Shown: in pieces, positions 142 through 4,598 of the stretch
Position numbering within the stretch: position 1 is the first letter of the stretch
Layout: each line of letters starts with the position of its first letter
Program-made: the position numbers and the translations under genes
Assembly (NCBI GenBank): GCA_902533655.1
Contig: CACAMX010000003.1
Coordinates: 1 to 49,828, forward strand
Direction: 5' to 3'
DNA: 49,828 bases
DNA from: an uncultured Bacteroidota bacterium
Lineage (GTDB): Bacteria; Bacteroidota; Bacteroidia; Flavobacteriales; BACL11
The notes under the pieces: model-generated
What the model was told of the DNA's origin: nothing
The model's database searches: none
Seen by the model: only the letters and a program-made list of their open reading frames with translations

Positions 142-272
142 GTTATAAATTTTTTATTCATTCTACATTTTTTACTACAATATTTTACATTTAACCAATC
201 TCTTTCCCACTTTTTTCGCCAAGTAAAAGGCCTTTTACATATAATGCAAATCTTAGATTCTTTATTTTTCAT
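138..272 (-). CDS. DUF2256-like small zinc-ribbon-type protein (44 aa)
   Basis: Translated by hand: [44 protein letters not shown]; CxxC...CxxxC with [11 protein letters not shown] typical of DUF2256. ATGA overlap with the downstream PLP enzyme. Below ORF track size cutoff. Confidence 0.8.
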
Positions 273-891
273 TTTTTATAAACTGTTCATAATTCATATA
301 TGGAACACTTTTTATCTTTTGCGTAGAGTAATAAGTATTTAGACTTCCAACAGAAACAGATTTGCACTTATTATAATCGATCTCAAAATTATCGTCTAAA
401 TAAGCGTCATTGATTATTATTTTTTTTATTTCAGAAATAACGATTCTACAATTATTACTTTTAACAATTATTTCTTCTTTAAACTTCATTAACATTTTTA
501 AAGGGCTGTGCTTTACAAAAGGGACTCCACTCAAATTTTCCATTTCAATGTTGCAATTCTCAAACTCTGATATCTCTTTTGGAAACTTCAAAGATGTTAA
601 GTGAGCTTTGTCAATCATATCCTCATTAATGTGATTTATAGAAAAGAATTTATTTTGAATAATGTTTTCATAAGTATGTCTTTTAGTATTATTTACTGGT
701 CTAAAGTTTAGTGCTAAAAGTGGTGGATTACTGCCCATATGAACTAATGAACTAAATATTGCAAGATTATTAATTTGAGTCTGTCCAGTGGTTCCAACTA
801 AGACAACAGGCTTAACACCAACTACTGAGTTAATTAGATTTAACCTTTTAATTTTTTCTATACTTCTTATATTATCGAACTCAACTTTCAC
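262..891 (-). CDS. Flavin reductase-like (FMN-binding split-barrel) protein; probable GTG start at 891
   Basis: ORF 262..999; sequence '[38 protein letters not shown]' matches the flavin reductase-like domain. The N-terminal ~36 codons of the ORF overlap the photolyase-like gene and lack domain similarity, so an internal GTG start is preferred. Confidence 0.75.
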
Positions 892-1990
892 TAAATAATT
901 TTTTAATATTTTTTTGGTTGACGTTCCAAAACTTAAAAAATGATGGATAAAGATTATCTTGAGAAAAGTATGATTCTCTTTTGTCCTCAGTTCCAGCATA
1001 TTCCAGATTAGTTGGATGCTCTTTGTAAAATACTCTATTTGGTTTATGCTTAAATATCATCTCTTCAAATGTACCAACAAAGATTTTTAATCCATTAATG
1101 TTTTTTGAGAGATTTATAAAAAATTTTAAAGATTTATTAGATATCGGATATTTTGAAAAAAAATCAGTATCAATTAACAATATCCGATTATAATCTTTTT
1201 CTTGTCTCCAATTTACATCTAGATTATAAAAATTATAAATCACTGTATCTAGATTTTGATTTAAAGAAAATGAATCAGAATTTATGTGGTCTAAGTTTGT
1301 ATTTAATTCAATTTCAGATTTTTCTTTTAATTGGTTTGGCTCTTCAACTTCAGTGATATAATCATAGCTAATGTCTAAAAATGTGTTTCTTTGAGATGTG
1401 CCAAAATATTTATTTATATTCTCTTGATTTGCAAAATATTTTTTAGATCTCGAGGTTCCACTAATCCACTGCCAGTTCTGAGAATTACTACCCCAATCAG
1501 AATCAAACAAATGGTAATACATCCATTTTGATGCATTTAACCAGTGACATCCAGAAATATTACATACTATTGATGAAATGTACATTCTCATATGATTATG
1601 CATATATCCAAATTTGTAAAGATTCTTAATAGCTTGGTCAACAGCATTTATTCCGGTTGAGTGATTGACAATTGCTAAAGGTATTTCATTATAATTATTG
1701 GAAACTTGATTTTTATCAAGATTTATATCCTCTTTTTTTAAAAACCAATTAGTTTGGAAGTATTCTCTCCAAGCTAGCTCCTGAAGAAATTTATAAATTT
1801 GGTTGTATCTTAACCCCTTGTTAGAAAAAAAGTCAATTAAAAAAGAAACTGTTATTAACCCTCTTGATAGATAAGGTGATAACATTGAAACATGCCCATT
1901 ATGAAAATTTCTTGTTTTTGCATAATCATGGATTTCAAATTTTTCAATTTTTTCTAAGACCGAATTATAATTAGTTTCAAACATCAGCAA
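881..1990 (-). CDS. Photolyase/cryptochrome-like FAD-binding domain protein lacking the canonical N-terminal alpha/beta antenna domain
   Basis: FAD-domain motifs LSPYLSRGLIT, FLQELAWREYFQTN, GINAVDQAIKNLYKFGYMHNHMRM, DSDWGSNSQNWQWISG; FAD domain starts within ~30 residues of the N-terminus. Confidence 0.85.
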   Translation of the reverse strand: MLMFETNYNSVLEKIEKFEIHDYAKTRNFHNGHVSMLSPYLSRGLITVSFLIDFFSNKGLRYNQIYKFLQELAWREYFQTNWFLKKEDINLDKNQVSNNYNEIPLAIVNHSTGINAVDQAIKNLYKFGYMHNHMRMYISSIVCNISGCHWLNASKWMYYHLFDSDWGSNSQNWQWISGTSRSKKYFANQENINKYFGTSQRNTFLDISYDYITEVEEPNQLKEKSEIELNTNLDHINSDSFSLNQNLDTVIYNFYNLDVNWRQEKDYNRILLIDTDFFSKYPISNKSLKFFINLSKNINGLKIFVGTFEEMIFKHKPNRVFYKEHPTNLEYAGTEDKRESYFSQDNLYPSFFKFWNVNQKNIKKLFSES

Positions 1991-2759
1991 TTCTAAATTT
2001 GTATTTTCCTTTAAACAAGTTAATTATCCTAATTTCATCTCTTGAGGGATATTCAACAGAGTAGCTTTTGATATTACTAACTCCAAACTCTTTCACTTGA
2101 GAATCATTTACTACAGCGTATGATTTGTTTTTTAACGAATCATTAAAAGAAATAACGTAGTTTCTCTTGCCAGTGTAGAAATACTTTTTTATGCAACTAT
2201 TAAATCTATCATTATAAGTCATGATTTTCTCTAAATTAACGCATGCACCTTTACATTTTTTAAGATGGTAATTAAAACAACAGCTATTTGATTTTTCAAT
2301 ACCATTAATAACATCACATAGGTTAAATTCTACTCCAATTCTTTGCAAAAATTTTTTTGCTTTGTGTTTTGAGGTAAATGAAATTGAATTTGAGTTATCA
2401 TTATTTTGTAAGAAATTGAATTGACTATATGAATTTTTGGAGCAACTATAAGATAAATAAATTGGATTCTTTAATTTCCTCAAACGTCTATTATATATGG
2501 GTCTAAACTTTTTTACAAGTTGAGATTCAAACATCAAACTCTCAAATTCAGAATGCATTTTAATATATCCTATTTTTTGAATTTGTAATCTCATATATAT
2601 TCTTCCAGAGGATAAATGTTGCTTAACTCTCTTTTTGACATTTACACTTTTGCCTATGTATAAAATTTCATTGTTATTATTATACAAGAAATAAACACCC
2701 AGAATATTCTCTGGCACATAATTTATCTTATTGATTGAAAAAAACACTTCTTTTTGCAT
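1977..2759 (-). CDS. GIY-YIG nuclease, Cho / UvrC N-terminal-like
   Basis: GVYFLYNNNNEILYIGKSVNVKKRVKQHL...ESLMFESQLVKKFRPIYN (GIY-YIG core) plus 'SCCFNYHLKKCKGACV' Cys cluster like UvrC/Cho (C-YHL-CKGPC). Confidence 0.82.
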   Translation of the reverse strand: MQKEVFFSINKINYVPENILGVYFLYNNNNEILYIGKSVNVKKRVKQHLSSGRIYMRLQIQKIGYIKMHSEFESLMFESQLVKKFRPIYNRRLRKLKNPIYLSYSCSKNSYSQFNFLQNNDNSNSISFTSKHKAKKFLQRIGVEFNLCDVINGIEKSNSCCFNYHLKKCKGACVNLEKIMTYNDRFNSCIKKYFYTGKRNYVISFNDSLKNKSYAVVNDSQVKEFGVSNIKSYSVEYPSRDEIRIINLFKGKYKFRIADV

Positions 2760-2796
2760 AGTTTTTTTTGAAGAGAACTATACAAATATATATAGA

Positions 2797-3696
2797 TTAT
2801 TTGTTATAAAAAAGATTCATTACCACAGCATGTGGTAATGTAATAACAGAAATAATAATCATTGATAAATAAGGAATAGAAATACCAATTAATTGAATGT
2901 AGGAACAATAAAAGATTATGAATGTAAAAAACAAACTTACAAGAGTGTATGGTAATAATAACAAAATGAAGTTTCTATAGTTAAAATTCAAATTTCCCTC
3001 TTTTAAAAACTTAAATTCCTGAAACATTACAGGAATTGAATGAAGCAAAACAAAATAAAGAGTAAAGGAAATAACAAATGGAAAAATAAATGAAATAATA
3101 TTAATTAAAAGCAAGGTAAATATTTCATTAAATAATTCACTGATTGAAAATTTTTTAAAGTACACTAGTGATAATTTGAATATAATAATTACAACAAGTG
3201 ATACATAGTATACATATGAAATTATATTTTCATCAAATATTTTGTCTAAAATAATTGTGTCCTGGTTAAATTGACTTAGTGTCTTAAGCTCTGAAATATT
3301 AAAATAAATTAAAGTAGATATTACGAATATACCATAAACGAAATAGAAAATATTTTTTAAAAAATACAAATCAAAGGATACAAAATGAAATTGAGATTCC
3401 CCAAAATGATAAGCTGAAAGAAGTAGAAAAAAAATAAATGAGATAATAGGAAAATAAAGCCAAAGTAAAACATATAAAAAAATCAATCCAAAATAAAAAG
3501 AATAGAAAAACAATTTACTTGATTTCATCTTACTAACATATAATACATGATCTATAGAGCCATGTGGAATACCAAATAAAGATACTAGAGCAATACAAAA
3601 AACCAATTGATTATCAACTGAAAGATGACCAAAGGATTGGTAAATTAGTGATAAAAAATATACCACTACAATTAATACAAATGTAAACTTATTCAT
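2797..3696 (-). CDS. blh: Brp/Blh family beta-carotene 15,15'-dioxygenase
   Basis: Multi-pass membrane protein with FGIPHGSIDHVLY, SAYHFGESQFH, LHSIPVMFQEF, LPHAVVMNLFY (conserved His motifs of Brp/Blh); adjacent to proteorhodopsin. Confidence 0.92.
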   Translation of the reverse strand: MNKFTFVLIVVVYFLSLIYQSFGHLSVDNQLVFCIALVSLFGIPHGSIDHVLYVSKMKSSKLFFYSFYFGLIFLYVLLWLYFPIISFIFFLLLSAYHFGESQFHFVSFDLYFLKNIFYFVYGIFVISTLIYFNISELKTLSQFNQDTIILDKIFDENIISYVYYVSLVVIIIFKLSLVYFKKFSISELFNEIFTLLLINIISFIFPFVISFTLYFVLLHSIPVMFQEFKFLKEGNLNFNYRNFILLLLPYTLVSLFFTFIIFYCSYIQLIGISIPYLSMIIISVITLPHAVVMNLFYNK

Positions 3697-3755: not shown

Positions 3756-4484
3756 TTATTCAGATTTTGAAGTTACTGCAATATTGTATACTACAAGTCC
3801 AAATCCTACTTTATTAATTACATCAGCAATGTTGTACCATAGGTCAACATCCGAAGGATTCATAACTCCACTTAACCATCCACCTGGCATACACATGTAT
3901 CCTATTGGATAGATCGCCCATCCAACTAATACAAACCAAGCTAACGTTCTAACACCTCTCTTAACAACTTCGTCATTACTCTTCTCAGCAAGCTGAGCAA
4001 CTTCTCCATACCAAGCAGTATAAAGAACGTATAAATAACCTAAAGTTGAAATAACACCCCAGGTAACAGAGTGAGAAGTACTTCCACCTTCTGGATTGAA
4101 TGACTCACCAATGTAACCCGCTATTAGCATCCACGTTGATGCAATAATTAGCTTCCACATTAAACTTTTCGTAGCTCCAGCCATTCTTGTTAATAAATAA
4201 AATTCAACACACATTAGAGGTACTGTTAAAATCCAGTCAACATATCTGTAGAATGTTGGGTTTTCACCAAATGCAAGATAGTAATCTCTCATGTAATAAT
4301 AGTGAACAGCAGCAATACCTGTAATAAGAGCTGATACAAGAAGAGACATTCTCCACTTTTTATCAACTGATCTCATTTCTGCAAAGAAAAATACAGTAGC
4401 TGCAAACATGGCCATAAAGCCAATAAAGAACGTAAATGCAACATAATCTGTTGGACTTAGTCTTACTGCGTCTAGTAATAACAT
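3756..4484 (-). CDS. Proteorhodopsin, proton-pump type (DTE motif), predicted green-tuned
   Basis: 7TM rhodopsin; helix C 'RYVDWILTVPLMCVEFYL' gives D97/T101/E108 with Met at position 105; 'AAVHYYYMRD' (His75 equivalent); retinal Lys in 'DVINKVGFGL'. Confidence 0.97.
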   Translation of the reverse strand: MLLLDAVRLSPTDYVAFTFFIGFMAMFAATVFFFAEMRSVDKKWRMSLLVSALITGIAAVHYYYMRDYYLAFGENPTFYRYVDWILTVPLMCVEFYLLTRMAGATKSLMWKLIIASTWMLIAGYIGESFNPEGGSTSHSVTWGVISTLGYLYVLYTAWYGEVAQLAEKSNDEVVKRGVRTLAWFVLVGWAIYPIGYMCMPGGWLSGVMNPSDVDLWYNIADVINKVGFGLVVYNIAVTSKSE

Positions 4485-4521
4485 ATTATAATTTTTTGAT
4501 TAAACGCGGCTAATATAATAC

Positions 4522-4579
4522 TTTTGCATAACATATTGTATAATTAATTATACTTTTTGCATAAAAAGTTTATGCAAAA
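4522..4579 (-). promoter_or_regulatory. Candidate proteorhodopsin promoter/operator
   Basis: Minus strand: TTGCAT (4577-4572), 19-bp spacer, TATAAT (4552-4547). Dyad TTTTGCATAAA-AAG-TTTATGCAAAA (4555-4579), perfect palindrome GTATAATTAATTATAC (4538-4553) and an extra TTTTGCATAA half-site (4522-4531). Confidence 0.6.
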
Positions 4580-4598
4580 CCTATACATCTACTTATTT

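Follow-up and report, generated by a model that had tools for sequence, protein, structure and literature searches.

Known CarH operators consist of tandem 11-bp direct repeats, and the published CarH recognition element is TnnACA, with TnnRCR as its looser form (PMC9304148). In searchable open-licence papers, we found neither a report of proteorhodopsin as a CarH/LitR target nor a named regulator of proteorhodopsin. Here, we analyzed an element located upstream of a gene for proteorhodopsin, a light-driven proton pump, in a 49,828-nt stretch of DNA (hereafter, the window; contig CACAMX010000003.1, forward strand, assembly GCA_902533655.1) from an uncultured marine Bacteroidota bacterium (Flavobacteriales; BACL11) whose genome is 55% complete. 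The half-sites of this element and of its counterparts in other Bacteroidota, TTATRCA and TTAAACA, fit TnnACA, while the G variant fits TnnRCR. We think it likely that this element serves as an operator array for a light-responsive repressor of the CarH/LitR family (MerR-type, cobalamin-binding). A CarH/LitR-type operator in front of proteorhodopsin is strongly supported in silico, with binding of the regulator as the step that we infer.

Structure of the array upstream of proteorhodopsin

The repeat unit upstream of proteorhodopsin comprises two half-sites in inverted orientation with a constant inner spacing of 16 bp (GYATAR-N16-YTATRC); the half-site centres are 22 bp apart, i.e., separated by about two helical turns. 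Two such units are present (Table 1); their 33-bp offset is close to the spacing of tandem dyads elsewhere in the regulon (32–34 bp), and half-sites of the array succeed one another at 10–12 bp steps, in mixed orientation. The original prediction had described a 25-bp dyad, a 16-bp palindrome, and a third half-site at 4522–4531. All three were found on the minus strand, and their letters and coordinates stand; their parsing does not, as the pieces break down into arms of the two N16 units together with two additional half-sites. No second copy of the 25-bp dyad exists in its own genome even when three mismatches are allowed (a reversed-pattern control gave no hits). The gene downstream of proteorhodopsin, blh, is probably co-transcribed with it.

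Table 1. Coordinates of operator elements and neighbouring genes in the window.
Feature	Position	Strand	Description
Operator dyad 1 (distal)	4559..4586	-	GTATAG-N16-TTATGC; 33 bp from dyad 2
Operator dyad 2 (proximal)	4526..4553	-	GTATAA-N16-TTATGC; includes 16-bp palindrome 4538-4553
Extra half-site	4570..4575	-	GCATAA; part of 25-bp dyad 4555-4579
Extra half-site	4538..4543	-	TTATAC; one half of 16-bp palindrome
Probable -7 element	4510..4517	-	TATATTAG; Bacteroidota TAnnTTTG type; 8 nt downstream of dyad 2
Third operator dyad	2756..2783	-	GTATAG-N16-CTATGC; over start codon of GIY-YIG/photolyase-like operon
Proteorhodopsin gene	3756..4484	-	Bac_rhodopsin, 1.8e-47
blh	2797..3696	-	beta-carotene 15,15'-dioxygenase (retinal synthesis); TIGR03753 1.3e-37, above cut-off
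GIY-YIG protein	1977..2759	-	3' of third dyad; operon span 881..2759
Photolyase/cryptochrome-like FAD_binding_7 protein	881..1990	-	3' of third dyad
Flavin reductase	262..999		next after photolyase-like gene

GYATAR-N16-YTATRC matches the window four times, compared to 0.08 matches expected, and none of 100 shuffled sequences reached four. The third of these matches is preceded directly by TATATTTG, which suggests a very short leader for the GIY-YIG/photolyase-like operon; two congeneric genomes have the exact pattern of this dyad as well, and a third has a degenerate version of it. The fourth match (2658–2685) lies within a coding frame, is absent from that place in the compared congeners, and was set aside as probably due to chance. 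Sites of the CRP/FNR type, whose half-sites and spacing are different (motifs compared from general knowledge), were also set aside.

The single half-site TTATRCAAA was not enriched in the window (six occurrences vs. 4.7 expected from shuffles), and since the sequence is AT-rich, half-sites alone are uninformative. Both observations would be in line with the array being a chance or AT-rich structural feature. Such an origin is hardly credible, given the fixed gap, near-zero controls, conservation, and coherent set of neighbouring genes; the spacing histogram described below already refutes it.

Gap specificity, conservation, and neighbouring genes

Five genomes of the genus were scanned with the strict pattern GYATAA-N16-TTATRC, and gaps of 4 to 30 were scanned with GTATAA as the left arm. 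The strict pattern occurs at 10–12 places per near-complete congeneric genome, while the reversed pattern does not occur in those genomes at all. In the gap histogram compiled from the five genomes, a gap of 16 accounts for 36 sites, and every other gap for 0–7 sites (~2 on average). One site, on contig C11 of genome G036, lies inside a 1639-aa frame and was taken as a chance occurrence.

The original prediction was open to refutation by a lack of conservation upstream of orthologous proteorhodopsins or by the absence of a MerR-type regulator from the genome; it withstood both tests. The N16 dyad is kept at 16 of the 20 proteorhodopsins of the family (shuffle mean 0.004), and its tandem arrangement in all four same-genus genomes that have proteorhodopsin, own genome included. 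The four family proteorhodopsins without a dyad come from genomes in which the short MerR paralogue (see below) was the only one detected. In G036 (L005), a ~20-bp tandem duplication upstream of proteorhodopsin has produced one further half-site.

When 86 non-redundant upstream regions of Bacteroidota proteorhodopsins were searched with a loose form of the dyad, 18 had a gap of 16 and eight a gap of 17; other gaps occurred 0–5 times. In distant Bacteroidota orders, the half-site TTATRCA is replaced by TTAAACA: TGTTTAA-N14-19-TTAAACA is present at 5–7 sites per genome in Flexithrix dorotheae, Thermaurantimonas aggregans, and Marivirga. This dyad sits immediately 5' of carH in cultured F. dorotheae and T. 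aggregans, between carH and the ECF-sigma/crtI operon in Marivirga arenosa (one dyad), and before proteorhodopsin in Marivirga, Thermaurantimonas, and Hymenobacter artigasi. No such dyad was found in Hymenobacter qilianensis; the exact half-site is therefore not universal. The stretches around proteorhodopsins of other Bacteroidota did not contain carH, and so linkage of carH to proteorhodopsin is not part of our argument. Among loci L175, L177, L179, L182, L184, and L185, an ECF-type sigma gene adjoins carH in Marivirga (confirmed by Pfam in L175), ECF-type-sigma-like genes are found near carH in Thermaurantimonas and Hymenobacter, and in Flexithrix such a gene lies beside three clustered dyads.

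Genes that adjoin dyads in the congeners include crtI, carH, and genes for glutathione peroxidase (GSHPx), HemB, YceI, plastocyanin/fasciclin, and cupredoxin proteins, as well as a photolyase region with a 6-pyruvoyl-tetrahydropterin-synthase-like gene and a pirin-cryptochrome operon. The photolyase, crt, and carH genes, beside which the original prediction had proposed to look for the motif, are thus all represented. The set resembles the light-inducible genes of Pseudomonas LitR (PMC9758184). In G036 (contig C17), a dyad lies directly 5' of hemB (L156 2508–2535). This site is of interest because porphyrins are photosensitisers, and heme/porphyrin synthesis may be part of the light regulon.

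A CarH-like regulator and the promoters it may control

The only MerR_1 match in the window's own genome is a 291-aa protein whose gene is divergent from crtI. A MerR/CarH-type regulator encoded outside the window, as had been anticipated, is therefore present, and its own promoter carries a dyad: in the crtI-carH intergenic region, GCATAA-N16-TTATGC is followed 16 nt later by TATATTTG. In Pfam, the protein consists of a MerR_1 domain (1.9e-11) and a subsequent four-helix B12-binding_2 domain (1.8e-7). It matches CarH in NCBIfam (7.6e-24) and in PDB entry 5c8d (7.6e-14), and with 84 bits against the NCBIfam equivalog cut-off of 400 it is, by this model, a divergent relative and no equivalog. 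Its W-x9-EH adenosyl-group motif (WLTNYIAPSQEH) and the lower-ligand histidine (xHxxG, in NEFHEIG) align with those of CarH in 5c8d and 3whp, and E151, H152, and H188 are invariant across 18 homologues. Judged from its sequence, the protein fits the testable features of class I CarH/LitR, the NCBIfam equivalog score excepted. The two near-complete congeners encode a cobalamin adenosyltransferase, the enzyme required for making the presumed cofactor.

A dyad was found upstream of the carH-like gene in 11 of 15 family homologues (shuffle mean 0.008). The dyad-bearing homologues are all 11 from g1, g4, g6, and g15, and retain both W and H. The CarH-like proteins of the family genera g8, g10, and g14 are without the tryptophan and their genes are without an upstream dyad; the proteorhodopsins of g8 and g10 nonetheless carry one. 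Within the family, the proteorhodopsin dyad is present in 10 of 10 genomes with long CarH and in 6 of 10 without it, an association that is suggestive only, since relatives are not independent samples. In G017 (98% complete), the proteorhodopsin dyad is present and CarH was not detected; the same is true of five less complete relatives.

Four other genomes of the genus contain a short MerR paralogue (class II LitR-like, ~220 aa; L131 1480–2139 on contig C3 of G036, with similar genes in G037, G038, and G039), in which Pfam recognises the MerR domain only. The array might be bound mainly by this protein, which has no B12 domain, with another signal or a partner photoreceptor possibly involved. 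Pseudomonas class II LitRs lacking a full B12 site control similar genes (PMC9758184), and in G036 the DUF2452/GSHPx intergenic region beside the short paralogue carries a tandem pair of N16 dyads with a 34-bp offset. We consider this unlikely, however, because the dyad-less family proteorhodopsins are those of genomes with the short type only, because in the genus the short gene has no dyad directly 5' of it, and because the long carH gene is itself commonly preceded by a dyad.

The arrangement of dyads with respect to promoters bears on the sign of regulation. In all but a few proteorhodopsins of the family, a TAnnTTTG −7 box occupies the corresponding position (the genus form, TATATTAG, has one mismatch), and such a box is recognisable in most dyad-associated promoters. 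At the family proteorhodopsins, the dyad mostly ends 16–20 nt upstream of this box; in this genus and three others, the distance is 8–9 nt. In the YceI, HemB, cupredoxin, plastocyanin, GSHPx, and cryptochrome operons, the left or right arm of the dyad lies directly over the −7 box, and the third dyad of the window is just downstream of it. Carotenoid genes and carH have dyads across their core promoters, as is the case for CarH operators.

The original prediction read the array as a MerR-activated promoter of the classical kind, in which TTGCAT and TATAAT flank a 19-bp spacer. Both hexamers are present at this spacing, and promoters of this kind are often activated by MerR proteins. Yet both hexamers are half-site fragments, the likely −7 box is at another position, and a scan of the proteorhodopsin upstream region with the σ70 consensus returned two promoter-like sites, compared to 2.6 in shuffled sequences, which is no more than chance. 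Moreover, the position of the dyad, which ranges from over the −7 box to 20 nt upstream of it and is once downstream, could hardly be tolerated by an activator of fixed geometry. Activation of this type is thus very improbable.

A CarH/LitR-like regulator could also bind the array and activate proteorhodopsin in the light, with no repression in the dark. The proteorhodopsin promoters have no clear −33 TTG box (by inspection), and most family members have the dyad centre 5' of the core promoter, as would suit an activator. We nevertheless regard this as rather improbable: at YceI, HemB, cupredoxin, plastocyanin, and the photolyase-like operon, dyads cover or follow the −7 box, which is a repressor position, and the CarH/LitR proteins described in PMC9304148 and PMC9758184 are repressors. 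Since dyads touch or cover −7 boxes in various registers, a repressor that blocks RNA polymerase fits better than fixed-geometry activation.

Proposed mechanism and comparison with known systems

The motif, its conservation, the set of neighbouring genes, and the existence of a regulator with conserved cofactor residues are matters of observation. The repressor model built on them is as follows. The binding unit would be a pair of inverted TTATRCA half-sites with a 16-bp inner gap, and two units would cover the DNA just upstream of the proteorhodopsin −7 box. In the dark, the regulator loaded with adenosylcobalamin would occupy the array and block RNA polymerase. In the light, destruction of the cofactor bond would cause the regulator to leave DNA, and proteorhodopsin-blh would then be transcribed along with carotenoid, photolyase/cryptochrome, and photo-oxidative-stress genes. 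Binding of the adenosylcobalamin form in the dark and its release by light are proposed by analogy with CarH (PMC9304148). We infer the light response, the B12 dependence, and the sign of regulation in the same way as the binding; dark repression of proteorhodopsin itself, though favoured, is the least certain step.

Proteorhodopsin is a common route to light use for surface-ocean bacteria, and these bacteria often must import vitamin B12. A broader proposal, to which we give about an even chance, is that across Bacteroidota proteorhodopsin phototrophy belongs to a B12-dependent CarH light regulon with an operator geometry of its own, the level being set by B12 supply and light. If so, darkness would not keep B12-starved cells from expressing proteorhodopsin, and this could account for the conflict between reports of light-induced and of constitutive expression. 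Related flavobacteria are reported to respond differently: in Dokdonia, light stimulated growth in one strain, and another showed constitutive expression with no growth advantage (PMC3587595). With a regulator, a site, and co-regulated genes named, light control of proteorhodopsin becomes directly testable, and the use of light would be tied to vitamin B12. Some of the cultured carriers, Marivirga, Flexithrix, and Thermaurantimonas, could be used for such tests.

The CarH systems of Thermus thermophilus, Bacillus megaterium, and Myxococcus share with the system proposed here a regulator with a MerR-type domain and a cobalamin-binding domain that contains W-x9-EH and the ligand histidine. Carotenoid gene targets, half-sites of the TnnACA type, and an operator placed over the core promoter are likewise common to the CarH Pcrt operators. 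Those operators, however, are tandem 11-bp direct repeats, whereas here half-sites are inverted and separated by a 16-bp gap; the proteorhodopsin-blh target, the Bacteroidota TAnnTTTG promoter, and a protein scoring well under the NCBIfam CarH equivalog cut-off are further differences.

Class II LitR proteins (PplR1 of Pseudomonas putida and PmlR2 of P. mendocina) are repressors, and photolyase, cryptochrome-like, and pterin genes are common to both systems (PMC9758184). Their site, T(G/A)TACA-N12-TGTA(C/T)A (PMC9758184), shares TGTAYA-type half-sites with the dyads described here, but not the spacing. Of the B12 domain, class II LitR retains the four-helix part alone, while in the long protein the region of the ligand histidine is present too. 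CarA of Myxococcus xanthus, finally, binds as dimers to inverted repeats in a promoter and has a CarH paralogue alongside, as would be the case here; CarA is B12-independent, whereas the long protein described here retains the cobalamin residues.
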